A DNA stretch of 64,000 nucleotides from the NCBI GenBank assembly GCA_903819975.1, contig CAIJFI010000004.1:1-64000 (forward strand), written 5' to 3'. The position numbers were made by a program, and so were the translations under genes. Under the pieces are notes generated by a model, which saw nothing but the letters and a program-made list of their open reading frames with translations, was not told where the DNA came from and did no database searches. The stretch comes from an uncultured Bacteroidota bacterium. GTDB taxonomy: Bacteria > Bacteroidota > Bacteroidia > Chitinophagales > Chitinophagaceae. Shown in pieces: positions 28,576 through 46,270 of this stretch (the first letter of the stretch is position 1; each line of letters opens with the position of its first letter).

Positions 28576-29883
28576 CTAAGCCGTCACCTTATTCAGCATC
28601 CAGGATTTAAACACGCCAAACTTGGCATCCATTGGGATAGCAACTTTTTCTTTGTCTAATAAAAACTGAACCGAGTCTGGTATAGCAATGGTTTCTCCTA
28701 TGGCTTCCTCCACTACTTCTGGGAATTTTACCGGATGTGCTGTTTCTAAAATAATAGCGGGTTGGTTAAATGCTTCTGCTGCTAAAAATGCAACTGCACC
28801 ATGTGGATCTAAAATATAATTATTTGTTTTATAAACACGATGTATGGTAGATGCAGTAGCTACGTCATCATAGCTATAACTACTTAAGCCAGACTTTAAT
28901 GCTTCAAAATTATTTTGCATAATTTCCATGATGCGCACAAAATTACTTGGATTACCTACATCCATTGCATTGGACACAGTTGCAACTGCTTTTCGCACTT
29001 CATAGTTTCCGCTATCCAAATACCTTGTCACAACATTATTGTCATTACATGCTGCAACAAAATGTCCTAGTGGCAAACCACTTGCTTTTGCCATCATGCC
29101 TGCACATATATTTCCAAAGTTGCCACTTGGCACTACAATATGCATTGGTACTTTGTCTCCATATTTTGCAACCCATTGTTGCCATGCAAAAAAGTAATAC
29201 AATTGTTGAGGTAACCAACGCGCTACATTAATTGAATTAGCCGATGTTAAATTATAAGCCGCATTCAATTCCGCATCCATAAATGCATCTTTCACAATAG
29301 CCTGACAATCGTCAAAACTTCCCTCTACTTCTAATGCTGTAATATTTTGTCCACAAGTGGTTAATTGTAATTCTTGTATAGGACTTACTTTTCCTTTTGG
29401 ATATAAAATAATTACTTCAACCCCTGCTACACCTAAAAATCCATTGGCTACTGCACCACCGGTATCTCCACTTGTTGCAACTAATACAGTGCTTGGTTTT
29501 TCGGCGCGTGTATGTTTTGAAAAATAGCCTAAACAACGACTCATAAACCTTGCACCCACATCCTTAAATGCTAAAGTGGGGCCATGGAATAATTCTAAAG
29601 ATGAAATCGTATCTGTAATAGGCACTAAGGGAAAATCAAAATTGATAGTCTCTGCACATATTTGTTGTAATGTCGCATCGTCTATCATGCCACCCACATA
29701 AGGCTTCATCACTTCAAAAGCCAAGCTTGCTTTATCTAAGGTTTTGAATTTTTCTATTTGCTCCGCAGTAAACTTTGGTATTTGGGTTGGGAAATACAAT
29801 CCTTTATCTGGCGCCTGTCCTGTAATAGCGGCTGTTTTAAAATCTACATTCGGTGATTGTTTTCCTAAACTATAATATTGCAT
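28576..29883 (-). CDS. thrC: Threonine synthase
   Basis: PLP enzyme of 435 residues that converts O-phosphohomoserine to threonine, the last step of the pathway. The PLP lysine lies in HGPTLAFKDVGARFMSR near 104-120. TSGDTGGAVANGFLGV near 136-151 and PSGNFGNICAGMMAK near 253-267 bind phosphate and cofactor. The short N-terminal domain and total length match E. coli-type ThrC. It is the last gene of the twelve-gene amino-acid run, 13 bp after thrB. Confidence 0.95.
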   Translation of the reverse strand: MQYYSLGKQSPNVDFKTAAITGQAPDKGLYFPTQIPKFTAEQIEKFKTLDKASLAFEVMKPYVGGMIDDATLQQICAETINFDFPLVPITDTISSLELFHGPTLAFKDVGARFMSRCLGYFSKHTRAEKPSTVLVATSGDTGGAVANGFLGVAGVEVIILYPKGKVSPIQELQLTTCGQNITALEVEGSFDDCQAIVKDAFMDAELNAAYNLTSANSINVARWLPQQLYYFFAWQQWVAKYGDKVPMHIVVPSGNFGNICAGMMAKASGLPLGHFVAACNDNNVVTRYLDSGNYEVRKAVATVSNAMDVGNPSNFVRIMEIMQNNFEALKSGLSSYSYDDVATASTIHRVYKTNNYILDPHGAVAFLAAEAFNQPAIILETAHPVKFPEVVEEAIGETIAIPDSVQFLLDKEKVAIPMDAKFGVFKSWMLNKVTA

Positions 29884-29896
29884 CTCAACTTTTTTA

Positions 29897-30904
29897 TTAG
29901 GCTTCTATTTCTACGCCAGTTTGATTTATGGTTGTCACATAAGTATGATGTGCTAATTCCAAACCTTCGTATAATTTTTTCATTTCTTTTTCTACAGCTA
30001 TTGCGGTTTCTTTTTCTTTACTTAAAAAAAAGATAGAGGGGCCGGATCCGGATATGCCTCCACCCAATGCACCAGCAGCTTTACATGCTTTCTTTAAATC
30101 ATCAAAGCCAGGTATTAAAATAGATCGCACAGGCTCAATAATTACATCTTCCAATGACCTTCCAATTAAATCATAATCACCTTTCATTAACCCAGCAACC
30201 AAGCCTGCGATATTTCCCCATTGCTTTATTGCATCTTTTAATTGTACATTTTGTTTTAAAATACTTCTTGCATCGGCAGTACGCACTTCAATTTGTGGAT
30301 GCACAATGGTTACAAATAAAGTAGGTGAGGGAAGTGCGATAACTTCTAAAGGAAAAATAGATCTTACTAATGTTACCCCTCCGTGAATACATGGCGCAAT
30401 ATTATCGGCATGTTTTACACCCGATGCTACTTTTTCACCATTCATAGCAAAGCGCACTAAGTCGTCCTTTGTAAATGGATTGCCTAATAAATAATTGGCT
30501 CCTACAACTGCGCCTGCACTACTTGCTGCGCTAGAACCCACACCACTACCTGGTTTGATTAGCTTATTTATTTTTACTTCAAAACCTATTGTTGAAAAAT
30601 CAACTAAACCAGTTTGTGTTGCGTCATCCGCAAATGATTTTTCTATAATACTATTTGCAGTATACTCCTCAATCATGGCAAGCAATGCTGCACCTGCCAC
30701 ATTCTTTTCAGGATCGGTTGGTAAATTATAATCGTCAATATTAATAATAGTAATGGATGCTTGTCCCGCTGCGCGGTTTACCAATCGCATTTCCATTTCA
30801 TCATACGGATTGTTCACAGCAAAGCCCAAGATATCAAATCCGCATACCATATTGGCTACAGTAGCTGGGGCTTTTATTTTTATCCATTGATTTAAAGGAA
30901 CCAT
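29897..30904 (-). CDS. thrB: Homoserine kinase (GHMP family)
   Basis: Phosphorylates homoserine to O-phosphohomoserine. The 335-residue protein carries the GHMP ATP-binding loop PGSGVGSSAASSAGAVVGAN near 117-136 and the C-terminal GGGISGSGPSIFFLS near 279-293. The N-terminal APATVANMVCGFDILGFAV is typical of ThrB. It lies 27 bp after thrA and 13 bp before thrC, forming the classical thrABC order at the distal end of the run. Confidence 0.95.
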   Translation of the reverse strand: MVPLNQWIKIKAPATVANMVCGFDILGFAVNNPYDEMEMRLVNRAAGQASITIINIDDYNLPTDPEKNVAGAALLAMIEEYTANSIIEKSFADDATQTGLVDFSTIGFEVKINKLIKPGSGVGSSAASSAGAVVGANYLLGNPFTKDDLVRFAMNGEKVASGVKHADNIAPCIHGGVTLVRSIFPLEVIALPSPTLFVTIVHPQIEVRTADARSILKQNVQLKDAIKQWGNIAGLVAGLMKGDYDLIGRSLEDVIIEPVRSILIPGFDDLKKACKAAGALGGGISGSGPSIFFLSKEKETAIAVEKEMKKLYEGLELAHHTYVTTINQTGVEIEA

Positions 30905-30931
30905 TGTTTACTATTATTTATTTTTTAGCTA

Positions 30932-33409
30932 TTAAACTCTTGCTGCTCTTATAATATCTGCAAATACACCCGATGCTGTTACATCGGCTCCAGCACCCGC
31001 TCCCTTAATCACCAATGGCAATTCAGGATATCGCATACTATAAAACAATACTAAATTGTCTTTCCCGTACAAATGATAAAAGTCCGAGCTTGGTAGTATG
31101 TGTTGTAATCCAACTTTAGCAGTGGTCTTACCATTGCCATCATTTTCAAACTTCGCTACAAATTTTAATTTACATCCTTCTGCTGCAGCGGCGTCATATA
31201 ATTTTTTGAAATGCGCTTCCTGCTTTTCCATCTCTCCGTAAAAATCTTCTACCGATCCATTAAAACAACTTGCTGGCAAGAACCCTTCATTCACAATATC
31301 ACTCATCTCTAATTTTGTTCCTGCTTCACGCGCCAATATCATTATTTTACGCATTACATCGGTGCCACCTAAATCTAATCTTGGATCTGGTTCGGTATAG
31401 CCTTGCGCTTGTGCTTCTCTAACAACAGCCGAAAATGTTTTACCATCGGTACCACCAGCATAATTATTAAAAACAAAGTTTAAGGTGCCCGATAATACCG
31501 CTTCAATTTTATTAATGCTATCTCCACTGCGGATTAAATCGTTTAATGTTCCTATAATAGGTAAACTTGCTCCTACATTGGTTTCAAATAGGAAGGACGC
31601 ATTAAACTCGCGTGCCAAGCTTTTTAATTTTGAATAATTCTCATAAGGAGAAGAACAAGCTATTTTGTTACAGGCCACTACCGAAACTGCTTTCTCTAAT
31701 AATTGCGCGTATACATTAGCAACTGTTTCATGTGCAGTAACGTCTACAAAAATACTATTACGTAAATTATTTTCTTCAATGGTTGCAACATAGTCTGTAA
31801 TAGTTCCAGTAGGTGCTGCCGCTAATTGTTCTTTCCAATTATTTAAATCTATCCCGTCTACATTTATTAATTGTCGCTTGCTATTGGCAATACCAACAAT
31901 ATTAATTTGTAGTCTTAATGATTTTTTTAAGTATTCAATTTGATGTTGGATTTGTGCAATTAATTTTCCACCCACATTTCCTGCACCTGCCACATAAACG
32001 TTTACTTGCTTATAAGATGTTTCAAAAAATTCTTCGTGTAATACGTTGATTGCTTTTTTAACATCTGATGTTGCAATAACTGCTGTAATATTTTTTTCAG
32101 ATGACCCTTGAGCAATGGCTCTTACATTAATACCATTGCGCCCTAACACGCCAAACATTTTACCACTCACGCCTGGATGATTTTTCATTTGCTCACCTAC
32201 CAATGCTAAAATGGCTACATCTTTTTCTACAATTAGTGGGTCTACTTTTTGTGTATTAATTTCTTGTTCAAACTCGGTGTCCACAGCTAACTTAGCCTGG
32301 TACGCATCGTTTGCGTTTACACCCACACAAATAGAATGCTCCGATGAACTTTGTGTGATTAATATAATATTGATTTGCTTTTTTGCTAAAGCGTCAAATA
32401 GTCTTTTAGAGAATCCTGGGATACCCACCATTCCACTACCTTCCAAGCTTAATAAACAAATGTCTTTTATGCTTGAAATACCGCGAATAAAATTAGTATC
32501 GTTAGGGGATTCATTTTTTATTAAAGTGCCAGGATGATTGGGTTCAAATGTGTTCTTTATCCAAACAGGAATATTTTGATGCATTACCGGTTGGATAGTT
32601 GGAGGATAAATTACTTTAGCGCCAAAGTGGGACAACTCCATGGCTTCCTGATAAGATATTTGTGGTATCTCTTTTGCATTTAGCACCATGCGCGGATCCG
32701 CTGTCATCATACCGCTCACGTCGGTCCAAATTTCTAATGCACTTGCTTTTACACCTGCTGCAAAAATGGCTCCTGTATAATCGGATCCTCCACGACCTAG
32801 TGTAGTAGTATTACCCTCCACATCAGACGCAATAAATCCTGGTGCCATATATAAGTCAAACTTATTGTTCTCTGCATCTGCAAAGTAAGTCTGAATTGTT
32901 TTTGCGGTTAAGTCCTTATCTACAACTGCATTTAAATAATTAGAATTGGTTTTAATTAACAATCTTGAATCTACCCATTGTTGATTAATTCCTTTTGATG
33001 CAAATGTTGCTGATATAATTTTTGAAGATAAAATTTCACCAAAGCTTACTATCTTATCCTGCATACGATTAGACAATTCTTTTAACATGAATAGTCCTTC
33101 GCAATTTGATTCTAATTCGTTAATAGTTTGTTTTACCAAACTTAAGGTTGCCGATTGTGCTTGTATTGGTAACAACGCACGCACTGCATCCAAATGCTTT
33201 TGTTCAATATTTTGAATAATGGTTTTGTATGCTTCGTTTCCTTGTGACGCAGATTGCGCCAACATTAATAATTGATCGGTCACCCCACTCATTGCAGATA
33301 CCACCACAATAGTTGGTTCCTTTTTAACTGACTCCGATACAATGGCCACCACTTTTGATATAGCTTCGGCACTTCCTACTGAACTTCCTCCAAATTTTAA
33401 AACTTGCAT
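30932..33409 (-). CDS. thrA: Bifunctional aspartate kinase / homoserine dehydrogenase
   Basis: An 825-residue fusion catalysing the first and third steps from aspartate to homoserine. The kinase half begins VLKFGGSSVGSAEAIS and contains TTLGRGGSDYTGAIFA near 207-222. Two ACT-like regulatory segments lie at about 310-465 (ICLLSLEGSGMVGIPG; VAILALVGEQMKNHPGVSG). The dehydrogenase half starts near 475 with VAGAGNVGGKLI and contains GTLNFVFNNYAGG and LDLGGTDVMRKIMILAREAG. The length matches ThrA/MetL. The position right after ilvA and before thrB indicates the threonine rather than methionine role. asd, needed between the two activities, is not in the window. Confidence 0.95.
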   Translation of the reverse strand: MQVLKFGGSSVGSAEAISKVVAIVSESVKKEPTIVVVSAMSGVTDQLLMLAQSASQGNEAYKTIIQNIEQKHLDAVRALLPIQAQSATLSLVKQTINELESNCEGLFMLKELSNRMQDKIVSFGEILSSKIISATFASKGINQQWVDSRLLIKTNSNYLNAVVDKDLTAKTIQTYFADAENNKFDLYMAPGFIASDVEGNTTTLGRGGSDYTGAIFAAGVKASALEIWTDVSGMMTADPRMVLNAKEIPQISYQEAMELSHFGAKVIYPPTIQPVMHQNIPVWIKNTFEPNHPGTLIKNESPNDTNFIRGISSIKDICLLSLEGSGMVGIPGFSKRLFDALAKKQINIILITQSSSEHSICVGVNANDAYQAKLAVDTEFEQEINTQKVDPLIVEKDVAILALVGEQMKNHPGVSGKMFGVLGRNGINVRAIAQGSSEKNITAVIATSDVKKAINVLHEEFFETSYKQVNVYVAGAGNVGGKLIAQIQHQIEYLKKSLRLQINIVGIANSKRQLINVDGIDLNNWKEQLAAAPTGTITDYVATIEENNLRNSIFVDVTAHETVANVYAQLLEKAVSVVACNKIACSSPYENYSKLKSLAREFNASFLFETNVGASLPIIGTLNDLIRSGDSINKIEAVLSGTLNFVFNNYAGGTDGKTFSAVVREAQAQGYTEPDPRLDLGGTDVMRKIMILAREAGTKLEMSDIVNEGFLPASCFNGSVEDFYGEMEKQEAHFKKLYDAAAAEGCKLKFVAKFENDGNGKTTAKVGLQHILPSSDFYHLYGKDNLVLFYSMRYPELPLVIKGAGAGADVTASGVFADIIRAARV

Positions 33410-33454
33410 AACCCTTAATTTTTATTACTAAGTATTTTACTACCTAGCTGACTA

Positions 33455-34729
33455 TTATATTAGATAGCCATATATATTATCGTCCTTATTTATTTCGTTG
33501 TAATTGATTTGATAGCGCTTCATATTTTCAATAAGCACTTCATAATCTTTATTTGATTTTAATTCCAATCCCACTAATGCCGGACCCGCTTCCTTATTAT
33601 GTTTTTGTATGTATTCAAACCTTGTGATATCATCCTCGGGGCCTAATACTTTATTTACAAATTCTTTTAAAGCGCCTGGCCTTTGTGCAAATCGAATTAA
33701 AAAATAATGTTTTAATCCTTCGTATATCAATGATCTTTCTTTTATCTCTTGCATACGTGCAATATCATTATTGCTTCCACTAACAATACATACGATTGTT
33801 TTTCCTTTTATTTGTTCCGAATAGTCATCCAATGCTGCAATACTCAATGCACCTGCTGGTTCTACCACTATAGCTTCCTCATTATACATTTGTAAAATAG
33901 TAGTACAAATTTTTCCTTCCGCAACTAAATGCATATCATCTATTACATCTTTACAAATTGCAAATGTGTAATCACCTATTCTTTTTACAGCTGCACCGTC
34001 CACAAACTTGTCTATAGATGCTAGTTCTACAGGATGTCCTTCCTTTAATGCAGTTAACATACTTGGTGCACCTTCTGGCTCCAAGCCAACCACTTTTGTT
34101 GTTGGAGAATATTGTTTAAAATAAGTTCCAACACCAGCACTTAAACCACCACCACCCACTGGAATAAAAATATAATCAATAGGTGCTTGTTCTAATTGTT
34201 TATAATCTTCTAAAATTTCTACACCCACCGTGGCCTGTCCTGCCATAATTAATGGATGATCAAATGGAGGAATAAATGTCATTCCATGCGCTGCGGTATA
34301 TTCCTTTGCTGCTTTTGCTGTATCGTCAAATGTGTCGCCCACTAATTTTACTTCCACAAAATTTTCACCAAACATTTTTGTTTGATTTACCTTTTGCTGT
34401 GGCGAAGGAATTGGCATAAATACCACTCCCTTTACATTTAATTTTTTACAACTATACGCAAAGCCTTGTGCATGGTTTCCGGCACTTGCACATACAACAC
34501 CCTTTGCCAACTGATCGGGTGTCAGCTGACTCATCATGTTATACGCACCTCTTAATTTATAAGAACGTACTATTTGTAAGTCCTCTCTTTTTAAATAAAC
34601 CCTGCACTGATACTTTCGGGATAAATTGGCATTAAATTGAAGCGGGGTATGGGTAACCACCGGCTTTAATCTTGCTGCCGCTCCTTCAATATCAAGTGCA
34701 GGCTTACTTACTAATTGATCATCACTCAT
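33455..34729 (-). CDS. ilvA: Threonine ammonia-lyase (threonine dehydratase), biosynthetic
   Basis: Makes 2-oxobutanoate from threonine, committing carbon to isoleucine. The 424 residues show the PLP lysine in VRSYKLRGAYNM near 53-64, SAGNHAQGFAYSCKKL near 83-98 and PVGGGGLSAGVGTYFK near 189-204. A single C-terminal ACT-like regulatory domain spans about 335-424 (HYFLIRFAQRPGALKEFVN). One regulatory domain, not the tandem pair of E. coli IlvA, is the short form seen in many Gram-positive and Bacteroidota species. It lies between ilvC and thrA and so joins the threonine and branched-chain halves of the run. Confidence 0.95.
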   Translation of the reverse strand: MSDDQLVSKPALDIEGAAARLKPVVTHTPLQFNANLSRKYQCRVYLKREDLQIVRSYKLRGAYNMMSQLTPDQLAKGVVCASAGNHAQGFAYSCKKLNVKGVVFMPIPSPQQKVNQTKMFGENFVEVKLVGDTFDDTAKAAKEYTAAHGMTFIPPFDHPLIMAGQATVGVEILEDYKQLEQAPIDYIFIPVGGGGLSAGVGTYFKQYSPTTKVVGLEPEGAPSMLTALKEGHPVELASIDKFVDGAAVKRIGDYTFAICKDVIDDMHLVAEGKICTTILQMYNEEAIVVEPAGALSIAALDDYSEQIKGKTIVCIVSGSNNDIARMQEIKERSLIYEGLKHYFLIRFAQRPGALKEFVNKVLGPEDDITRFEYIQKHNKEAGPALVGLELKSNKDYEVLIENMKRYQINYNEINKDDNIYGYLI

Positions 34730-34783
34730 TTCTTAATCTTTCACAGGTTCAAGTAGATCTATTAAATCTTAATTCCGTCCTAA

Positions 34784-35839
34784 TTATTTTGCTGGTTGGT
34801 TTTCTGGACGTAAGCTTCTAACTGTACGACCTGCTTGCCACATTTCACTATTGTGTAATTCAGCTAATTCAACTTCTAATTTTGCACGGTAGTCATCCTT
34901 GCTATTCAAGTCGATTGAACGAGCAGCTTCGGCACCTGTTGCTACACTATTGTATAAATCAGAGAATACTGGTAAAGTTGCATCACGGAATTTTTTCCAC
35001 CAATCCAACGCACCTCTTTGTGCCGTTGTTGAACAGTTTGCATACATCCAATCCATTCCATTTTCTGCTACCAATGGCATTAATGATTGTGTTAACTCCT
35101 CTACTGTTTCATTGAATGATTCAGAAGGTGAGTGTCCGTTTTTACGTAACACTTCATATTGCGCTGCGAAGATACCTTGGATTGCTCCCATTAATGTACC
35201 ACGCTCTCCTGTTAAGTCAGAGTAAACTTCTTTTTTGAAATCTGTTTCAAATAAATATCCAGAACCAACTGCAATACCTAATGCAATAACTCTGTCATGT
35301 GCTTTACCTGTTGCGTCTTGGAAAATTGCGAAGCTACTGTTTAAGCCACGTCCTTGTAAGAACATTCTTCTTAATGAAGTACCAGAACCTTTTGGCGCTA
35401 CTAAGATAACATCTACATCAGCTGGAGGTACAATACCTGTTTGCTCTTTGTAAGTGATACCAAAGCCATGAGAAAAATACAATGCTTTTCCTGGAGTTAA
35501 ATGTTTTTTAACGGTAGGCCACATTGCAATTTGCGCTGCGTCACTTAATAAATAACAGATAATAGTTCCTTTTTCTAATGCTTCTTCTATTTCAAATAAA
35601 GTTTGGCCAGGTACGAATCCATCAGCTACTGCTTTATCCCAAGATTTTGAATTTTTTCTTTGACCTACAATTACATTAATACCATTTTCTTTTTGGTTCA
35701 ATGCTTGACCTGGTCCTTGTACGCCGTAACCAATTACTGCTACTACTTCATTTTTTAACACTTCTTGTGCTTTTGCTAATGGGAACTCCTCACGAGTTAC
35801 CACATTTTCTTCCGTACCTCCGAAATTTAACTTTGCCAT
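34784..35839 (-). CDS. ilvC: Ketol-acid reductoisomerase
   Basis: Converts acetolactate or acetohydroxybutyrate to dihydroxy acids using NADPH. The 351-residue class I-size protein has the nucleotide fold at VAVIGYGVQGPGQALN near 33-48 and the NADPH-phosphate loop GQRKNSKSWDKA near 59-70. Metal-binding acidic residues lie in FETDFKKEVYSDLTGERGTL near 196-215 and in FNETVEELTQSLMPLVAENG. It is separated from ilvN by 91 bp, in which no gene or strong hairpin was seen. Confidence 0.95.
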   Translation of the reverse strand: MAKLNFGGTEENVVTREEFPLAKAQEVLKNEVVAVIGYGVQGPGQALNQKENGINVIVGQRKNSKSWDKAVADGFVPGQTLFEIEEALEKGTIICYLLSDAAQIAMWPTVKKHLTPGKALYFSHGFGITYKEQTGIVPPADVDVILVAPKGSGTSLRRMFLQGRGLNSSFAIFQDATGKAHDRVIALGIAVGSGYLFETDFKKEVYSDLTGERGTLMGAIQGIFAAQYEVLRKNGHSPSESFNETVEELTQSLMPLVAENGMDWMYANCSTTAQRGALDWWKKFRDATLPVFSDLYNSVATGAEAARSIDLNSKDDYRAKLEVELAELHNSEMWQAGRTVRSLRPENQPAK

Positions 35840-35930
35840 TTTACTTTGAGTTTAATTAAGATTTAAAATTTTTGTTACTTGTTTTATTAATTGTTTATTT
35901 ATGATTGCTCCGTTTTTACACGGTTATATT

Positions 35931-36533
35931 TTACATCGTGAATACTGCTTCTCTTTTCCCTAAATATTCATTTTCGGTTACTTCCTCTCCTGGCTCTCGC
36001 TTTTCAAAGTCTTTTAACTTTTCATGGAAGCCAGCACTCTCCTTAATGATAGCGACTCTTGCACTTCGCACAAATTCCACTAGTCCGTATGGCTCTAATG
36101 CTTTCATTAATTTATTAGTTTCTTCTCTATGTCCTGTGGTTTCAAAAACAATAAAGTCTTTTCTAATGGCTACCGCTCGTGCACCAAACTCTCTTAATAA
36201 TCTTTCCACTTTTACTTTTTCAGTAATCTCTTCGCTTAATACTTTATACAAAGCCAACTCCTGCCAAACAATTTCGTCGTTGGTATTAAAGTAGGCTTTT
36301 AAAACCTCCACTTGTTTTTCAATTTGACGCACCACTTTTAACACTACATCGCGCGACTCTTCCACCACAATTGTAAATCGGTGTATGCCTGGCACTTCCG
36401 ATGGTGATGTGTTTAAGCTTTCGACATTAATTTTTCTTCTCGAAAAAATAATGGCAATACGATTTAACAAACCCACTTGGTTTTCGGTATACACTGTAAT
36501 AGTGTACTCTTGCTTGTCGGTATTGTGATACAT
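35931..36533 (-). CDS. ilvN: Acetolactate synthase regulatory small subunit
   Basis: Regulatory subunit of acetohydroxyacid synthase, binding valine or related effectors to tune IlvB. The 200-residue protein has an N-terminal ACT domain (YTITVYTENQVGLLNRIAII, about 9-28, through 80) and a second ACT-like domain at about 85-165 that carries a GHREETNKLM segment. It is longer than E. coli IlvN/IlvH, with an extra acidic C-terminal tail (KDFEKREPGEEVTENEYLGK). It starts 35 bp after ilvB, the standard order. Confidence 0.92.
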   Translation of the reverse strand: MYHNTDKQEYTITVYTENQVGLLNRIAIIFSRRKINVESLNTSPSEVPGIHRFTIVVEESRDVVLKVVRQIEKQVEVLKAYFNTNDEIVWQELALYKVLSEEITEKVKVERLLREFGARAVAIRKDFIVFETTGHREETNKLMKALEPYGLVEFVRSARVAIIKESAGFHEKLKDFEKREPGEEVTENEYLGKREAVFTM

Positions 36534-36568
36534 ATAATTCGCTTTACTACTTTAATAAATTTGTTCTA

Positions 36569-38266
36569 CTATTTCAATCTGATTTCACTTACGCTACAAC
36601 CTTGTGGCACCATTGGGAATACATTGTTTTCTTTTCCTACCATTACTTCTAACAAGTATGATCCCTTATGCTCCAACATTGTTTTCACTGCGCTTTCTAA
36701 ATCTTTTCTGTGTTCTACTTTTGCTCCTGCAATGCCATATGATTTTGCTAGCATTACATAGTCGGGACTTTGAATATCCACGAATGAATATCTTTTATCC
36801 ATAAACAAATCCTGCCACTGACGCACCATGCCTAAAAACTGATTGTTTAAAATCATAATTTTTACATCCACTCCAGTTTGCATAATGGTTCCTAATTCCT
36901 GTAAGGTCATTTGAAAACCTCCGTCTCCAATTACTGCAATCACAGTTCTATCCTGTGCACCAAACTTGGCACCAATCGCTGCAGGTAGCCCAAAACCCAT
37001 GGTACCAAGGCCTCCAGAAGTTACATTGCTACGCGTTTGATTAAACTTTGCGTATCTGCATGTTACCATTTGGTGTTGGCCTACATCCGTTACCATTATT
37101 GCATTGCCTTCGGTTACTTCATTCGCAACACGAATTGCTTCTGCCATTGTCATTGCTTCGGTAGTTGGATACATTTCTGGTTGAATACATTGATCATATT
37201 CTTCCTTAGCATATTTTGCAAATACTGCCAACCACTCACTTCGGTCTTTTTGTTCTATTCCTAATGTTAGTAATGGTAAAGTTTCTTTACAATCTCCCCA
37301 TACACCCACATCGGCTTTTACATTTTTATCTATCTCAGATGGATCAATATCCAAATGAATAATTTTTGCTTGCTTCGCGTATTTATCTAATCGTCCTGTT
37401 ACACGATCATCAAAACGCATACCAATTGCAATTAATACATCGCAGTCATTGGTTAATACATTAGGTCCATAGTTTCCGTGCATGCCCACCATTCCTACGT
37501 TTTGTGGATGGTCCGTTGGTAATGCACTTAGTCCTAAAATGGTCCATGCTGCTGGCATGCCCGATTTTTCGATAAATTTTTTAAATTCTTTTTCCGCTTT
37601 TCCTAATATTACTCCTTGTCCAAAAACAACCAATGGTTTTTTTGCATTGTTAATTAATGCAACCGCTTCGTCTATATATTCTTTTCTGATAACTGGCTTT
37701 GGTCGGTAAGATCTAACATGATTACATGGCGTATAGCCTGGATAATCAAATAATTGAAACTGTGCATTTTTGGAAATGTCAATTAACACCGGACCTGGTC
37801 TTCCACTTCTTGCTAAATAAAATGCTTTCGCTAATACTGCAGGAATTTCTTCGGCATCTGTAATTTGATAATTCCATTTTGTTACCGGCATGGTAATATT
37901 AATTACATCCGTTTCCTGAAATGCATCTGTTCCTAATAAATGTGCAAACACTTGTCCTGTAATACATACCAATGGAGTGCTATCTATCATGGCATCGGCA
38001 AGTCCTGTTACTAAATTAGTTGCACCTGGACCACTTGTTGCAAATACCACACCTACTTTTCCTGAACTACGCGCATATCCTTGTCCAGCATGGATTCCAC
38101 CTTGTTCATGTCTTACTAATATGTGGTTTAATTTTTCTTTATAGTCATACAATGCATCATATATTGGCATGATTGCTCCACCTGGATATCCAAATATGGT
38201 ATCCACTCCCTCTGCAATACAAGCTTCCAATACTGCCTGTGATCCTGTTAATTGTTTCTGTTCCAT
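36569..38266 (-). CDS. ilvB: Acetolactate synthase catalytic large subunit
   Basis: Thiamine-diphosphate enzyme of 565 residues that condenses pyruvate with pyruvate or 2-oxobutanoate. The catalytic Glu lies in LVRHEQGGIHAGQGYAR near 51-67. The FAD-domain segment VLIAIGMRFDDRVTGRLDKY is near 279-298. The ThDP/Mg motif GDGGFQMTLQELGTIMQTG runs from about 444 to the downstream MILNNQFLGMVRQWQ. All catalytic landmarks are intact. It follows ilvD by 32 bp and precedes the small subunit. Confidence 0.96.
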   Translation of the reverse strand: MEQKQLTGSQAVLEACIAEGVDTIFGYPGGAIMPIYDALYDYKEKLNHILVRHEQGGIHAGQGYARSSGKVGVVFATSGPGATNLVTGLADAMIDSTPLVCITGQVFAHLLGTDAFQETDVINITMPVTKWNYQITDAEEIPAVLAKAFYLARSGRPGPVLIDISKNAQFQLFDYPGYTPCNHVRSYRPKPVIRKEYIDEAVALINNAKKPLVVFGQGVILGKAEKEFKKFIEKSGMPAAWTILGLSALPTDHPQNVGMVGMHGNYGPNVLTNDCDVLIAIGMRFDDRVTGRLDKYAKQAKIIHLDIDPSEIDKNVKADVGVWGDCKETLPLLTLGIEQKDRSEWLAVFAKYAKEEYDQCIQPEMYPTTEAMTMAEAIRVANEVTEGNAIMVTDVGQHQMVTCRYAKFNQTRSNVTSGGLGTMGFGLPAAIGAKFGAQDRTVIAVIGDGGFQMTLQELGTIMQTGVDVKIMILNNQFLGMVRQWQDLFMDKRYSFVDIQSPDYVMLAKSYGIAGAKVEHRKDLESAVKTMLEHKGSYLLEVMVGKENNVFPMVPQGCSVSEIRLK

Positions 38267-38298
38267 AGTCTTTCTTTTTACTTTTCCAAAGGCATTCT

Positions 38299-39978
38299 TT
38301 AATCAGCATCCGTTACACATCCTTCACTTGCATCCTTTACCAACTTTGCATATTTATACAATACGCCATTGGTTACTTTTAATTTCGGTGCTGGTTGTGC
38401 TGCTCTTCTTTTTGCAATAGTCGCTTCGTCTACTTTTAATGTCATGGTACGTTTTGGTACATTCAATTCAATAATGTCTCCGTCTTCTACCACGCCAATC
38501 AATCCACCTTTGTATGCCTCTGGTGTAATATGTCCAATTACAAATCCGTGTGTTCCGCCGCTAAAACGTCCGTCCGTAATTAATGCAACCGACTTTCCTA
38601 AGCCTGCACCAATAATTGCCGATGTTGGTTTTAACATCTCTGGCATCCCTGGAGCGCCTACTGGGCCTACGTTTTTGATAACGACTACATCACCCGGTTG
38701 TATCTTTTTTGAATTTATGCCTTCAATCAATGCATGCTCTCCATCAAATACTCTTGCTGGCCCTTCAAACATGTCACCTTCTTTTCCAGAAATTTTTGCA
38801 ACGCTTCCGCCTGTTGCTAAGTTTCCGTACATGATTTGTAAATGTCCTGTTGCTTTGATTGGATTTTCTTTTGGATAGATAATTTTTTGTGCATCAAAAT
38901 CTAAATCAGGTGCACTCGCTAAATTTTCCGCAATTGTTTTTCCTGTTACAGTTAAACAATCTCCATGCAACCATCCTTGTGCCAACATATATTTCATTAC
39001 CGCTGGTACACCACCATACTGATGCAAGTCCTGCATTAAATATTTTCCCGATGGTTTAAAATCGGCTAATACAGGAATCTTATCACTAATGGTTTGGAAG
39101 TCGTCTTGTGTAAATTCAACACCCACACTTTTTGCCATTGCAATCATATGCAATACTGCATTGGTGCTTCCGCCTAATACCATAATTACGGCTACTGCAT
39201 TTTCAAATGCTTTGCGCGTCATGATATCTTTTGGCTTAATATCTAGTTCTAATAATAATCTGATTGCTGCACCCGCATCCTTACACTCTTGTTGTTTTTC
39301 TTTACTCAATGCTGGGTTAGAAGAAGAATAAGGCAAACTCATTCCCAATGCCTCAATAGCCGATGCCATTGTGTTTGCGGTGTACATTCCACCACATGCA
39401 CCAGCACCTGGACAAGCGTGTTGTACGATTCCTTTAAAATCCGCTTCGTCCAATTGTCCCGCCATTTTTTGTCCTAATGCTTCAAAAGCAGATACAATAT
39501 TTAAGTCCTGTCCTTTATAATGTCCTGGTGCAATTGTTCCACCATATAACATTAAGGAAGGACGATTTAATCTTCCCATTGCAATTAAAGAACCTGGCAT
39601 ATTTTTATCACAACCTGGAACTGTAATTAATGCATCATAATATTGTGCACCACAAACAGTTTCAATACTGTCTGCAATTACATCACGGCTTACTAATGAA
39701 TAACGCATACCATCGGTACCATTACTCATGCCATCACTCACACCAATCGTATGAAAAGTTAATCCCACTAAATCATTTGCACACACACTTGTTTTTACAT
39801 CGGCTGCTAAAGCATTCAAATGCATATTACATGTGTTACCATCGTATCCCATACTCACAATACCAACTTGCGCTTTATGTAAATCTTCGTCGGTTAATCC
39901 AATACCATAAAACATAGCTTGCGCAGCGGGCTGCGTTGGATCTAGCGTGATTGTTTTTGAATATTTATTTAGTTCCAT
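38299..39978 (-). CDS. ilvD: Dihydroxy-acid dehydratase
   Basis: Fe-S dehydratase of 559 residues that produces the 2-oxo acid precursors of valine and isoleucine. Cluster cysteines are visible in [17 protein letters not shown] near 119-135 and [18 protein letters not shown] near 188-205, with the early [18 protein letters not shown] near 38-55 supplying the third. The conserved late [19 protein letters not shown] is near 472-490. The length is standard. A 141-bp gap before it (after leuB) has no gene and no strong hairpin. Confidence 0.96.
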
Positions 39979-40119
39979 CTTTTATTTTTTAAAGCGCTTC
40001 TATTTTTCTTATTCGCTTATTAATCATTTATCTATTACTAATTGCTCCTGAACCATTTATAAAATTACGATCTATTATCCGCCTAACCTTAAGACGAATG
40101 TTTGTTAGATGTTCATTTA

Positions 40120-41235
40120 TTAGATGATGGTAGATTTATGCAAACGCTCATGTATTGGATGTGTTTCTCCTTTTGCATGTCGCTCAATAAATTCACAAAT
40201 CAAATCACCAATAGCAGTTGTTGTATAGCTATTCATTGGATCGATATCCTTTGTTACAAAACCACTGTTTAAACACCATGATGCCGCTTCTCTAATAATA
40301 GTTGCTTCATTGGTTAATCCAAAATGATCCAACATCATTGCAGATGATAAAATAGATCCTAACGGATTCGCAATGTCTTTTCCTTTTGCTTGTGGGTAGG
40401 ATCCATGAATAGGTTCAAACAATGCAACTGTATTTCCTACAGAAGCTGATGGCAACAATCCTAATGAACCCGCTAACACCGATGCCTCGTCACTAATAAT
40501 ATCTCCAAACAAATTCTCTGTTAATACCACATCAAATTGTGCTGGGTTTAAAATAATTTGCATTGCAGCATTGTCTACAAATAAATAATCCACTGCAACA
40601 TCACTATACTCTTTTGCAATGGCTTGTACTACTTTTCTCCAAAGTCTTGAAGTTTCTAATACGTTTGCTTTATCTACTAGTGTTAATTTTTTTCTTCTGA
40701 TTTGTGCATGCTTAAATGCCAAGTGTGCAATACGCTCAATTTCTGCAACCGAATAAGAACAATCATCTCTTGCAACCGTTCCATCCTCACTTAAACTTTT
40801 TGCACCAAAATAAATTCCACCTGTTAACTCTCTATAAATAACAAAGTCAACATTCTCTAACAACTTTGGTTTTAAAGGTGTTAAATGTTGCAATGCAGCA
40901 TAAGTAGTCACTGGGCGGATATTCGCAAACAATTGTAATTCCTTTCTTAGTTTTAATAAACCTTGTTCTGGTCTTACTTTTGCTGTTGGATCGTTATCGT
41001 ATTTTGGATCACCAATAGCGCCAAATAAAATAGCATCACTCGACTTACATATTGCAATAGTCTCGTCTGGTAATGGATTGCCAGTTGCGTCAATAGCACA
41101 AGCACCCATTAATGCATTTTCGTAACTAAACTCATGATTGTAATACTTTGCAATCGTGTCTAATACTTTAATTGATTGCTGTGTTACTTCTGGACCAATT
41201 CCATCTCCTAATATGACTGCTATTTTCTTTTGCAT
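40120..41235 (-). CDS. leuB: 3-isopropylmalate dehydrogenase
   Basis: NAD-dependent decarboxylating dehydrogenase of 371 residues in leucine synthesis. It opens IAVILGDGIGPEVTQQSIKV. The substrate-binding LRKELQLFANIRPV near 96-109, YRELTGGIYFG near 134-144, metal-binding ENLFGDIISDEASVLAGSLG near 239-258 and the NAD-site EPIHGSYPQAKGKDIANPLG near 274-293 are all present. The gene order leuA-leuC-leuD-leuB differs from E. coli leuABCD. It lies 11 bp after leuD. Confidence 0.95.
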   Translation of the reverse strand: MQKKIAVILGDGIGPEVTQQSIKVLDTIAKYYNHEFSYENALMGACAIDATGNPLPDETIAICKSSDAILFGAIGDPKYDNDPTAKVRPEQGLLKLRKELQLFANIRPVTTYAALQHLTPLKPKLLENVDFVIYRELTGGIYFGAKSLSEDGTVARDDCSYSVAEIERIAHLAFKHAQIRRKKLTLVDKANVLETSRLWRKVVQAIAKEYSDVAVDYLFVDNAAMQIILNPAQFDVVLTENLFGDIISDEASVLAGSLGLLPSASVGNTVALFEPIHGSYPQAKGKDIANPLGSILSSAMMLDHFGLTNEATIIREAASWCLNSGFVTKDIDPMNSYTTTAIGDLICEFIERHAKGETHPIHERLHKSTII

Positions 41236-41246
41236 AATTTATTGTT

Positions 41247-41831
41247 TTATTGATTTGCTTTTTCGTAAGCCTCAATTTCTGGTTTCATGTTTAATAAATA
41301 ATCAATATCGTCATAGCCATTTAACATACAAGTCTTTTTATAAGAGTTGATGTCAAATTTTTCTGTAGCACCTGTTGCATCAATAGTTATAGTTTGTGCT
41401 TCCAAGTCCACCGATAAAGTATCGTCCGCACCTTGTGCAAATATTTGTTGTAAGAATGCGTCTGTAACCGTTACAGGCAATACGCCATTGTTTAGAGCAT
41501 TGTTTTTAAAGATGTCTGCGAAAAAGCTTGACACCACTACTTTAAAGCCATAGTCTTGAATACTCCATGCAGCATGCTCACGTGAACTTCCACATCCAAA
41601 GTTTTTAGCTGCTACTAAAATTTCACCACTATATTGTTTTTGGTTTAATACAAAATCGGCCTTTGGTTTTGATTCATCGTCGTTCTCGTATCTCCAGTCT
41701 CTGAATAAATTTTTTCCAAAACCATCTTTAGTAGTCGCCTTTAAAAAACGTGCTGGTATAATTTGATCCGTGTCTACGTTTTCTATACGTAAAGGGATAA
41801 ACTTACTTGTGATTTTTTGTAATGATTGCAT
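41247..41831 (-). CDS. leuD: 3-isopropylmalate dehydratase small subunit
   Basis: Swivel-domain subunit of 194 residues of the isopropylmalate isomerase heterodimer with Leu[21 protein letters not shown] near 18-37 is the family opening; [19 protein letters not shown] near 77-95 is the substrate-recognition loop. It lies 43 bp after leuC and 11 bp before leuB. Confidence 0.95.
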
Positions 41832-41874
41832 ATTATTTTAATAATTGAGTTGCCTTTTAGCGACTCGGTTATAT

Positions 41875-43275
41875 TTATATTATATCTCTGATGTCTGTTA
41901 TTTTTCCTGTTAACAAAGCTGCTGCTGCTGTTAATGGACTTGCTAATAATGTTCTTGCACCTGCACCCTGACGTCCTTCAAAGTTTCTGTTGCTGGTACT
42001 AATACAATATTCGCCTGCTGGAATTTTATCTTCGTTCATTCCCAAACATGCACTACATCCTGCTTGTCTAATTTCAACACCTGCTGCTGCAAATATTTTA
42101 TCTAAACCTTCGGCAACAATTTGTTTTGCAACTTCTTGTGATCCTGGTACAATTAATGTTTTAATGTTCGGATCTTTTTGCTTCCCTTTTATAATGCTTG
42201 CTACTAATCTAAAATCTTCGATTCTTGAATTCGTACATGATCCAATAAATACATTTTGTACTGGCATGCCTAACAAACTTTGTCCAGCCGTTAATCCCAT
42301 ATACTTTAACGCTTTCTCATAATTCTGTTTTTCGGTTGCATCGCTAAAACTTTCAATAGTTGGCAATGTGCCTCTTACCGACAATCCCATACCTGGATTG
42401 GTTCCGTAAGTAATCATTGGGTCAATATCTTCGGCTTTAATATTTATTTCTATATCAAACTTTGCGTCTGCATCGGTATACAACTCTTTCCAAGTAGCTA
42501 ATTTTTTATCCCAGTCTGCGCCTTGTGGTGCAAACAATCTTCCTTTAATATAATCGAATGTTGTTTGATCCGGTGCAATCATTCCTCCACGTGCACCCAT
42601 CTCGATACTCATATTACAAATAGTCATTCTCGCTTCCATACTTAATGCACGAATAGCCGAACCCGCATATTCAACAAAATATCCAGTTGCGCCACTTGCA
42701 GAAATAAGTGCAATGATATAAAGAATAATATCTTTTGATACGACTCCGTTTTTCAATGCACCGTCTATATTTATGCGCATTACTTTTGGCTTGCTTTGCA
42801 TAATACATTGTGAAGCAAATACCATTTCTACCTCGCTAGTTCCAATTCCAAATGCGATAGATCCAAATGCACCATGTGTTGAGGTATGACTGTCTCCACA
42901 AACTATTGTCATTCCTGGTTGTGTAATACCCAACTCTGGTCCTATCACGTGTACAATACCTTGGTACTTATGTCCTAGGCCATATAATTCTACACCGTGC
43001 TTTTTACAGTTTTCAATTAAAGTATCTACCTGAAATTTAGACAATGCATCCTTAATTGGTAACTCCTGATGCATGGTTGGTACGTTGTGGTCGGCTGTCG
43101 CAACAATTTGTTGTGGTCTAAATAATTGTGCGCCTCTTTTTTCAATACCACTAAAAGCTTGTGGACTAGTTACTTCGTGTATAAAATGTTTGTCAATATA
43201 TACAACCGAAGGGCCATCCTCAATTTGTTTTACAACGTGCTTATCCCAAATTTTTTCAAATAATGTTTTTCCCAT
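41875..43275 (-). CDS. leuC: 3-isopropylmalate dehydratase large subunit
   Basis: Aconitase-type 4Fe-4S subunit of 466 residues. It begins [13 protein letters not shown], with [16 protein letters not shown] near 28-43 and [20 protein letters not shown] near 129-148. Cluster cysteines are in [14 protein letters not shown] near 343-356 and [16 protein letters not shown] near 403-418. It pairs with leuD directly downstream and follows leuA by 58 bp. Confidence 0.96.
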
Positions 43276-43333: not shown

Positions 43334-44485
43334 TTATTTTTTAAATGCTGTTGCCATTTCTTGCAAATCAGCTTCTAATACTTCTTTCTTTTTATCTGCT
43401 ATCTCTACAAATATTGGATACAATTCGTCTACCTCATTTCTTGTAAACTGATACCCTAATTTATGTAGGCGATGCGCTAATGCACTACGTCCACTTCGCG
43501 CTGTTAATACAATTTTACTTTCGTCTGCGCCAACTTCGGCTGGATTAATAATCTCATAAGTTTGTGCTTCCTTTAAAAATCCATCCTGATGAATTCCAGA
43601 TGAATGTGAAAACGCGTTGGCTCCTACAATTGCTTTGTTAGGTTGCACCATCATTCTCATTGTCTCTGAAACTTCACGGCTTATTGTGTTTAACAATTTT
43701 GGATTAATGTCGGTATAAAAACCTAAGTCCTTGTGTTGATTTAAAATCATTACAACTTCCTCTAATGCTGTGTTACCTGCACGCTCACCTAATCCATTTA
43801 TAGTACACTCAATTTGTCTTGCACCACCAATCACACCTGCAATTGAATTTGCAGTTGCCAATCCTAAATCGTTATGACAGTGACATGATAAAATTGCTTT
43901 GTCTATATTAGGTACATTGTTGTACAAGTAGTTCATTTTTTCTTGATACTGCTGTGGTAAACAATATCCTGTTGTGTCTGGAATATTTAAAGTAGTTGCT
44001 CCAGCTTTTACAACTGCTTCAATAACTCTTGCTAAATATTCATTGTCTGTTCGTCCCGCATCCTCAGCATAAAATTCTACATCATCGGTAAAATTTCTTG
44101 CAGTTTTTACTGCTTTAATGGCACGCTCAATAATTTCCTCACGCGTACTATTAAATTTATGTTTGATATGCAAATCCGATGTTCCAATACCTGTATGAAT
44201 TCTAAAACGCTTTGCTGGTTTTAATGCAGCAGCTGCTACTTCGATATCATTTTGTACGGCTCTTGACAATCCACAAACCACTGTATTTTTTAAAGTCTTT
44301 GCAATTTGATTTACCGATTCAAAATCGCCTGGGCTCGAAACCGGAAAACCTGCTTCTAATATGTCCACACCTAACTCCTCTAATTTTACGGCTAGCTCCA
44401 ATTTTTCCTTGGTGTTTAATTTACAACCCGGAACCTGCTCACCATCTCTTAATGTGGTATCAAAAATGAAAACTTTTTGACTCAT
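43334..44485 (-). CDS. leuA: 2-isopropylmalate synthase, short form without the C-terminal regulatory domain
   Basis: Condenses acetyl-CoA with 2-oxoisovalerate, the first step of leucine synthesis. The start chosen is ATG at 44485 ([20 protein letters not shown]); the 14 extra codons up to 44527 are Lys/Ile-rich and not family-like. The HMGL-like TIM barrel is complete: metal-site DTTLRDGEQ and [17 protein letters not shown] near 201-217, with [15 protein letters not shown] near 229-243. At 383 residues it stops after the linker subdomain ([15 protein letters not shown]). The leucine-binding LeuA dimer domain of about 500-residue enzymes is missing. Homocitrate synthase is unlikely given the neighbours. 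The leader carries a candidate attenuator. Confidence 0.93.
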
Positions 44486-44583
44486 CGTTAATGCTTTAAT
44501 TTTTAAATAAATAGCTGCCTTTTTCATCCAAACTTGAGTCAGGATAAAGCAAGCATCTAATTGATTTTGAACCTATTATGGAT

Positions 44584-44607
44584 AAAAAACGGGCTTTTGG
44601 CCCGTTT
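44584..44607 (-). terminator. Intrinsic terminator in the leuA leader (candidate attenuator)
   Basis: Leftward AAACGGGC-CAAAA-GCCCGTTT forms an 8-bp stem, and the run continues as TTTTTT on the same strand. It lies about 100 nt upstream of the leuA start and just after a short leader ORF. The only gene further upstream diverges, so the hairpin has no preceding gene to terminate, unlike an ordinary terminator. The U run is on the leuA strand; rightward only TTTATT follows. Confidence 0.75.
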
Positions 44608-44644
44608 ATTGTTCAAATTTACCCAATATCAACAAGTAATTCAC
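44606..44644 (-). CDS. Candidate leader peptide with Leu-Leu-Ile-Leu codons before leuA
   Basis: A 12-codon frame from GTG at 44644 reads MNYLLILGKFEQ and stops with TAA at 44608-44606, where the terminator stem begins. Codons 4-7 are TTG TTG ATA TTG, matching products of the operon behind it. A short AGG lies upstream as a possible ribosome site. Weak points are the GTG start and an ATG-ATG-TGA immediately upstream that overlaps it as GTGA. It is too short for ordinary gene prediction. The regulatory role is inferred from position and codon content. Confidence 0.45.
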   Translation of the reverse strand: MNYLLILGKFEQ

Positions 44645-44734
44645 ATCATTTTTATGCCTATTTTACAATGTATAAGGACCCAATTATTTGATTAAATGAT
44701 TGATTTTCAATAACTTGAACTAAAATCAGCTACG

Positions 44735-46270
44735 ATGCCCAACCTAAGCACCGACGCCCTATTTATTTTGGTAAAATCCCTAGAAAAGGGGGAAAAGCGC
44801 AACTTTAAGTTGTATGCTGCTCGCAATTCCGCGTCGGCTGATTTAAAGATTGTCCAACTTTTTGATGCCTTGGACAAAATGAAGGACTATGACGAGGAGG
44901 AATTACTGCGCAAAAACGAGTCTATTCAAAAACAACAGCTTTCCAATTTGAAGGCTCACTTATATGATCAAATTTTATCAAGCCTTAGGATCCTAAAGCA
45001 AAGTGAAAACATTGACTTACAAATTCACGAGCAACTGGACCATGCTAAAATTTTATACAACAAAGGACTTTATATTCAAAGCTTAAGACTTTTAGATAAA
45101 ATCAAAACCCTGACCAAACAAAATAATCAGGTTACTTTTTTATTACAGGTTTTATTTTTAGAAAAGAAAATTGAAGCACTTCATATTACTCGAAGCATGC
45201 AGGATAGAGCTAAGCAATTAAGCGATGAAATTGACGAAGCCAATGAGCGTTTAGAATTAATTGCAAAAACCTCTAATCTTAGTTTACAATTATACAGTTG
45301 GTATATTCAACATGGTCATGCACGTAACGAAGAAGACAGAAAAACTTTAGACGCTTTAATGCAGGATCCAATTATTGAACGTGTGAAATTGGTGAAAGGT
45401 TTTTACGAAAGATTATATCGCTACCAATGTTATTGTTGGTATGGTTTTATTACGCAGGATTTTTTAATGCATTATAGATACGCGCAAAAATGGGTAGACC
45501 TTTTTGAGAAGGAAGAAAATATGCAAGTAATTGAATCGGCTCAATATATTAAAGGCTTGCACAATTTAATTAGTGCACACTTTGATTTAAAAAATATTGA
45601 TAAGTTTAAAGAAACTATTTGCATATTAGAACACTTTAGTGAAACTCCCATTGTGTTAAACAACAAGAATAATTTAATTCAATCTTTTGTTTATTTATAC
45701 ATTGGTAAAATTAACCAACACTTCCTGGAAGGCACGTTTAGCGAGGGTTTAGCAATGATTCCTACTATGGAAGAAAAGCTAAAAGAGATTGAAATGTATA
45801 TTGATAGTCACCGTGTTTTGGTGTTCTATTATAAAATTGCTTGCCTGTTTTTTGGTGCTGGAGATTCAGAAAAAACAATTGATTATTTAAACAGAATTAT
45901 TAATTGGAAAGTGAACCTGCGTGACGACTTGCAATGTTATGCACGCTTATTACACTTGATTGCGCATTATGAATTAGGTAATAAAGAAGTAGTTATTTAT
46001 TTATCCAAGTCCGTATATAGGTTTATGTCTAAAATGAAAAACCTAGGTGCGGTAGAAGAAGTGTTGTTTAACTTTTTAAGAACATCCATTCAGTCGGGTA
46101 GTCAAGCTTCCTTTGAAGATTTATTAGTAAAACTAGAACCACTTGAAAAAAATAAGTTAGAGAGCAGAGCCTTCATGTACCTTGATATTATTTCTTGGTT
46201 AGAAAGCAAAATACATGGTAAAGATGTTCAAACTATTATTAAAGAAAAATTTGAAGCAGCCCACAAATAA
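44735..46270 (+). CDS. Unrecognised 511-residue protein, probably alpha-helical repeat (TPR-like)
   Basis: I do not recognise a defined family. The protein has no signal peptide or membrane segment and is predicted cytoplasmic. It is strongly helical, with heptad-like Leu/Lys/Glu spacing. The stretch QLDHAKILYNKGLYIQSLRL at about 109-128 has the Ala/Gly-Tyr/Leu rhythm of TPR helices, and FGAGDSEKTIDYLNRIINWK near 371-390 looks like another such unit. The opening is NLSTDALFILVKSLEKGEKR. It diverges from leuA across a 207-bp shared region and ends at a bidirectional terminator. A scaffold or regulatory role is only a guess from helical repeats. Confidence 0.7.
   Translation: MPNLSTDALFILVKSLEKGEKRNFKLYAARNSASADLKIVQLFDALDKMKDYDEEELLRKNESIQKQQLSNLKAHLYDQILSSLRILKQSENIDLQIHEQLDHAKILYNKGLYIQSLRLLDKIKTLTKQNNQVTFLLQVLFLEKKIEALHITRSMQDRAKQLSDEIDEANERLELIAKTSNLSLQLYSWYIQHGHARNEEDRKTLDALMQDPIIERVKLVKGFYERLYRYQCYCWYGFITQDFLMHYRYAQKWVDLFEKEENMQVIESAQYIKGLHNLISAHFDLKNIDKFKETICILEHFSETPIVLNNKNNLIQSFVYLYIGKINQHFLEGTFSEGLAMIPTMEEKLKEIEMYIDSHRVLVFYYKIACLFFGAGDSEKTIDYLNRIINWKVNLRDDLQCYARLLHLIAHYELGNKEVVIYLSKSVYRFMSKMKNLGAVEEVLFNFLRTSIQSGSQASFEDLLVKLEPLEKNKLESRAFMYLDIISWLESKIHGKDVQTIIKEKFEAAHK

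Follow-up and report, generated by a model that had tools for sequence, protein, structure and literature searches.

What regulates the large biosynthetic operon that opens with leuA in this uncultured member of the Chitinophagaceae? The window, by which we mean the whole 64,000-nucleotide stretch analyzed, carries a hairpin with a T-run between a short reading frame and leuA, and a preliminary description had proposed the pair as a candidate transcription attenuator worked by a leader peptide. We asked which of these parts are conserved in relatives, where transcription is likely to begin, and what kind of element the hairpin may be.

The leuA locus

The twelve-gene Leu/Ile/Val/Thr run reported earlier was borne out, from leuA to thrC in the order given in Table 1, with thrA encoding a fused aspartokinase/homoserine dehydrogenase; gene order and strand indicate that the twelve genes probably form one transcript. 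The leuA start codon is the ATG at 44485, 98 nt past the U-run, and another in-frame ATG lies at 44527. Measured against the 516-position family model, the product has no C-terminal part. The reading frame, the 8-bp stem, and the six T before leuA all proved real when checked letter by letter, and the argument that no leftward gene lies upstream also held. The neighboring gene (44735-46270, plus strand) is divergent, so there is no minus-strand gene for which the hairpin could serve as an ordinary 3' terminator, and an attenuator was consequently a fair guess. The divergent gene matches a BT2802 family ribose utilization model at 133.5 bits, below the cut-off of 550, and its start stays beside leuA across the leaders read.

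Table 1. Features of the leuA region in the window.
Feature	Position	Strand	Basis
leuA, 2-isopropylmalate synthase, 383 aa	43334..44485	-	matches positions 4-381 of the 516-position family model
leuC, leuD, leuB, ilvD, ilvB, ilvH, ilvC, ilvA, thrA, thrB, thrC	28576..43275	-	family models, order
U-run, six T, three of them within the 3' arm of the stem	44584..44589	-	letter check
Terminator-like hairpin, 8 bp, 5-nt loop, stem AAACGGGC/GCCCGTTT; putative reduced P1 homologue	44587..44607	-	sequence, fold
12-codon reading frame of the preliminary description, GTG start; taken here for probable promoter sequence (spacer and -7 box) rather than a gene	44606..44644	-	intact in 4/24 clade leaders, overlaps box
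Predicted transcription start (+1)	44609..44609	-	box taken to lie at -12 to -5 (PMC9723704)
-7 promoter box TAAATTTG, Bacteroidota consensus TAnnTTTG	44614..44621	-	box start 18 nt before GGGC of the stem, fixed in 24/24 clade leaders
Palindrome TTATACATTGTAA, family consensus approximately TTACACAGTGTAA, candidate activator site	44663..44675	-	center 48 bp before box start, about -60

Promoter and predicted start site

Sixty-one genomes belong to the same genus as the window, and 55 of them had a LeuA match; fragmentary matches (e.g., G006, G008, G024, and G030) were left out and 50 leaders (L001-L050) were read. The window's own clade, which is Sediminibacterium-like (its LeuA is 87-89% identical to records of that name, L259-L261 and L270), accounts for 25 leaders, of which 24 were scored, L005 being cut short with 47 nt upstream. 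The main sigma box of Flavobacterium, TAnnTTTG, is placed at -12 to -5 in PMC9723704. A box of this type stands before the hairpin throughout the clade, at a constant distance (Table 1), as TAAATTTG in 18 leaders, TATTTTTA in 5, and TAAATTTA in 1. With the box at -12 to -5, transcription of leuA would start near 44609, two bases before the stem. An alternative start at TACATTGT (44671-44664), which resembles the TAnnTTGY box described in that source, was set aside: it overlaps a palindrome and, judged by eye, is not conserved in most relatives.

Of 111 family leaders, 101 match that palindrome at 9 or more of its 13 letters, versus 36% in shuffles, and 79 match at 10 or more, versus 4.5%, with a consensus drawn from the same leaders and with 7 of 118 leaders excluded as too short or because leuA lay within an operon. 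Its center lies 48 bp from the box in 67 and 47 bp in 8 of the 79 leaders measured. The window's genome holds three exact sites, the other two having no box at 47-48 bp. Fixed phasing between palindrome and box would be expected if the promoter had an activator site, and the palindrome at about -60 is a candidate for one. The short reading frame appears to lie between the palindrome and the box region, within the promoter.

The short reading frame

Control by a leader peptide would call for a conserved frame carrying codons of the regulated amino acids, placed downstream of the transcription start, together with an alternative antiterminator pairing. The proposed 12-codon frame (44644-44606, minus strand) reads GTG AAT TAC TTG TTG ATA TTG GGT AAA TTT GAA CAA TAA. 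It is intact in only four of the 24 clade leaders (L001, L002, L006, and L007), runs through the hairpin in two, has only 4-6 codons in 14, and is missing from four. The -7 box falls inside the frame, which ends at the predicted start site; it should therefore not be transcribed, and probably belongs to the promoter and stays out of the RNA altogether. The run of Leu/Ile codons does not exceed chance: a frame of 8-30 codons with four consecutive Leu/Ile/Val codons occurred in 14.4% of 2000 first-order intergenic shuffles. In the 61 longer elements described below, a closed ATG/GTG frame of at least 6 codons with at least 2 Leu/Ile/Val codons was present in 11 only. The antiterminator suggested earlier, in which GGTCC (44680-44676) pairs with GGGCC of the stem, was rejected as well, since GGTCC lies upstream of the predicted start and was found in just 2/24 leaders.

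Conservation and position thus lead us to reject the leader peptide. The preliminary description had staked itself on both parts recurring in close relatives, and they part company there: the frame is seldom intact, and the hairpin keeps its core in all 24 leaders. The guess of an attenuator remains a fair one, without control by a leader peptide.

A second short frame (44539-44556, minus strand; ATG CTT GCT TTA TCC TGA, encoding MLALS) lies 3' of the hairpin and may be an upstream ORF or an old leuA start context. An ATG after TCAATWAG occupies this place in 13/24 clade leaders, with differing peptides.

The window hairpin

Folding of the 35-nt RNA that begins at 44609 gave -11.7 kcal/mol (z -4.08), with 0/200 shuffles as good; the whole 82-nt leader folds no better than its shuffles (z -1.07, 33/200 as good). 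Among 103 TAnnTT[T/C]G boxes in the 64-kb window, one has a T-run hairpin 10-17 nt from the box start, and the arrangement appeared in 0/20 first-order simulations of the window. The hairpin therefore exceeds chance. It has the GC-rich stem followed by a U-run that marks a terminator, though a standard scan, whose rule is five T in the eight bases directly after the stem, did not flag it. Its 4-bp GC core is the part kept in every clade leader, the loop letters vary freely, and T makes up 51% of the 8 nt after the stem in the 24 short forms versus 33% in leaders at large. Covariation was not seen across the 24 rows: no pair had both sides changed, every shuffle scored at least as high, and a C-G pair of the stem is broken in L007 and L024. 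The case for the short stem as an RNA consequently rests on its fold energy, its U-run, and comparison with a fuller form.

A full-form element in other Chitinophagaceae

Many other members of the family carry, after the same kind of box, a hairpin of 50-60 nt made up of an outer stem (P1), an inner RGCARKCR...CAAA core, and a U-run; GCAGGCUGUUUA...UAAACAGCCUGC is an example of its P1 arms. We aligned 24 rows (A2) and then 61 rows (A4), hand-picked for carrying the element and related to one another. RNAalifold found P1 unprompted in 24 hand-picked rows, and its pairing was above both controls in the 24-row alignment too. In the 61 rows, 84.0% of P1 cells are paired versus 76.0 (sd 0.8) in shuffles, and 72 cells have both sides changed versus 32.1, with 0/500 shuffles as high in either case. 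Double changes occur in 11 of the 14 P1 pairs versus 8.3 in shuffles, a count that 18/500 shuffles reach. Sliding the partners by 1-3 columns left only 34.8-47.0% of cells pairing. Near copies, long-insert forms, and weaker forms were left out of A4 (L078, L130, L133, L152, L158, L159, L027, L030, L034, L041, L048, and L049).

P1 in these relatives is thus the covarying helix that a structured cis-regulatory RNA should have. The strict core motif is present in 52/61 rows and missing from 9, and T reaches 69% in the 8 nt after P1, against 33% in leaders at large. P1 starts 11-14 nt after the start of a TAnnTT[T/C][G/A] box, i.e., at -1 to +3 relative to the predicted start, in 50/61 leaders; of the other 11, ten carry a weaker box at that same distance, and in the last the pattern recognized no box. 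Two long-insert forms (L158:202-310 and L159:1552-1663) have an extra hairpin between the core halves AGCAAGCAAUAC and ACAAAAAUAAGCAG, an arrangement easier to reconcile with a folded RNA than with a DNA operator. A Leu-codon peptide was considered for the TTGTTATT stretch of the same-genus full forms and rejected, as no start codon is conserved and the frames are broken (by eye); the inner stem of the full form explains the stretch. The full form is likely a real, uncatalogued 5' RNA element specific to leuA.

Distribution and searches for known families

Across 394 family genomes, model R1 had matches with E <= 0.01 in 130 genomes and, at E <= 1e-5, 79 matches in 78/394 genomes of 33 genera (24 of them the model's own rows, 55 not). 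All 79 lie directly before leuA, as established in three batches of 47, 20, and 12, the last by coordinates. Matches weaker than 1e-5 are a mixture. Three with E between 1e-5 and 0.01 were examined (L166-L168), and none neighbored any of the 12 query genes; the full forms of the window's own genus also get weak R1 scores and were recovered at leuA by a second model, R2. The window's own genome had no match to R1 or R2. Scans of the order (E <= 1e-4; 25/298 genomes, 24 of them in the family) and of the class (6/396 genomes, 3 of them in the family) used stricter filters, by which weak matches are lost. The four matches outside the family, all weak, are simple perfect stems that have a T-run but lack the core, and the same is true of L187 within the family. 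Among 69 family genomes with a strong LeuA match, the open frame spans 385-483 codons in 65, which are of the short type like the window LeuA, and 508-549 in four (G066, G073, G089, and G109), and none of these four has an element match with E <= 1e-5 (0/4).

A known RNA family was rejected. The window gave no Rfam match at gathering thresholds, 10 relatives' loci gave none at E <= 1, and 10 more loci at E <= 2 gave only Dicty_Class_I_RNA, at 24.1 bits (cut-off 41.5) and outside the element. A literature search brought up neither a paper describing a leuA RNA from Chitinophagaceae nor the phrase "leucine riboswitch," most subscription papers lying outside its coverage.

From full to short form

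Within the genus, the 49 scorable leaders comprise 24 with the short hairpin, 19 with the full form, and 6 with neither, so the element is dispensable. The window clade forms a single branch of the LeuA tree (support 100), nested in a larger one (support 96) where full forms also occur; this was a quick tree of 180 columns with 37/73 inner branches open and no inferred root, and in its labels L078 is wrongly marked as lacking the element and the degenerate L076 as full. Because the clade is nested among full forms, it is simpler to suppose that the core was lost. Seven pairs of P1 have counterparts in both forms, and at position 4 an A-U pair in 58/61 full forms is a G-C pair in 24/24 short ones. 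The window stem therefore appears to be the homologue of P1, with the core lost and A-U swapped for G-C. With the core gone from the clade, regulation there is the weakest link. In another genus, L060 has a short T-run hairpin after the box (AAAAGTGGC tga GCCGCTTTT) upstream of leuA, perhaps an independent reduction.

Proposed mechanism and alternatives

From the position of box and hairpin, the covariation of P1, the core, the leuA-only position, and the homology of the short stem, we infer a start site, termination, regulation, and a sensed signal as follows. In the full form, transcription would start at the foot of P1, and the nascent RNA would fold within about 60 nt into an intrinsic terminator, P1 ending in the U-run. 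The RGCARKCR...CAAA core in the P1 loop would respond to a signal linked with leucine supply and, bound or unbound, would set whether transcription terminates or reads through into leu-ilv-thr. In the window, the hairpin (44607-44587) would be the first part transcribed from the leuA promoter; lacking the core, P1 with its U-run may act as a fixed brake, as a 5' stabilizer, or through another input, and a factor acting at the -60 palindrome probably adjusts initiation. We give a probability of roughly 0.55 to this reading, in which the window hairpin is a start-site terminator that attenuates leu-ilv-thr and whose sensor, held inside the loop of the full form, was lost in the clade. Attenuation is placed first because the U-run is kept. 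Counting against it are the lack of covariation and of the core in the clade, the leaders with neither form, the terminator scan that did not flag the hairpin, and the alternative pairings examined by eye, none of which was common to different sequence groups.

That U-run is also what tells against the first alternative, in which the hairpin shields the 5' end of a long operon mRNA from decay, with no termination and an incidental U-run. A stabilizer would fit P1 starting at about -1 to +3 and the persistence of the clade stem, with loop letters free to vary, after the core was lost. However, it has no need of the excess of T after P1 in the 61 rows, and it leaves the conserved core of the full form unexplained; we consider it unlikely. 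The short form could also be a vestige, or could act at the level of DNA as an early transcribed region or an operator at the start site, with no RNA role in the window's genome. The loss of the core and the lack of covariation within the clade are consistent with this, as is the phased palindrome, which points to DNA-level control in the region, but a stem core kept in 24/24 leaders while the loop varies, and the compensated replacement of the full form's A-U pair by G-C, argue against it, and we consider it still less likely. Bolder, and decidedly unlikely, is the proposal that the full form is a new riboswitch class binding leucine or a leucine-pathway metabolite, with its core in the loop of a +1 terminator, and that the window's lineage has lost the aptamer and kept the expression platform. 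Ribosome-mediated attenuation by the 12-codon peptide is hardly credible: TTG TTG ATA TTG is present and its stop codon touches the stem, PMC9723704 describes strong clues to attenuation by leader peptides upstream of amino-acid operons in Flavobacterium, and two relatives of the same class have a convincing leuA leader peptide, but the frame's rarity in the clade, its overlap with the promoter box, the ease with which shuffles produce such frames, and the few qualifying frames among full forms all count against it.

Comparison with known systems

Leader-peptide attenuators, such as those of enteric leu and ilv operons or Bacteroid-trp (RF01692), itself a leader-peptide element, resemble the window in that the leader of an amino-acid operon holds a terminator-like hairpin. 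Here, in contrast, the peptide is not conserved, the frame sits in the promoter, and the hairpin begins close to +1 (at +3 in the window), so that no leader gene would fit before it. The two relatives just mentioned (L195 and L196, of one genus in another Bacteroidia family, code f49) have Ile/Leu-rich ATG leader peptides before leuA, MNQAFIHILLCGIIILLAKFSGSEYCA and MNQMFIHILLSGIIILLSRVSGSGCCA. Both peptides follow a TACCTTTG box and precede a terminator-like hairpin; the window shares only the hairpin with them. Bacteroid-trp is listed for Bacteroidetes in PMC2864571.

Metabolite riboswitches with an intrinsic terminator are alike in their covarying stem, conserved unpaired core, U-run, and single downstream gene family. 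Unlike them, the element has no Rfam match or known ligand, and its core lies within the loop of the terminator itself, whereas theirs forms a separate aptamer upstream. T-box leaders also place a terminator in the leader of an amino-acid operon, but no T-box family matched in Rfam for the window or the 20 relatives' loci, and the full elements are only 50-60 nt long. Hairpins of the ompA type, which stabilize the 5' end, share the location at the end of the mRNA, whereas here a U-run follows the stem and the full form has a conserved core.

Implications

The window leader is not an ordinary leader peptide; it is likely a real, unlisted RNA element. Since the window holds the reduced form, the finding points beyond this genome to an element of the whole family. 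If the proposed reading is true, a compact RNA beginning at the first transcribed base controls leuA across a large family of environmental bacteria, and it carries its sensor inside the terminator, without a leader peptide. The part missing from the window LeuA is presumably the leucine feedback domain, and control of synthesis may consequently have to replace control of the enzyme. The window clade would offer a natural test of how a terminator behaves after its sensor is lost.
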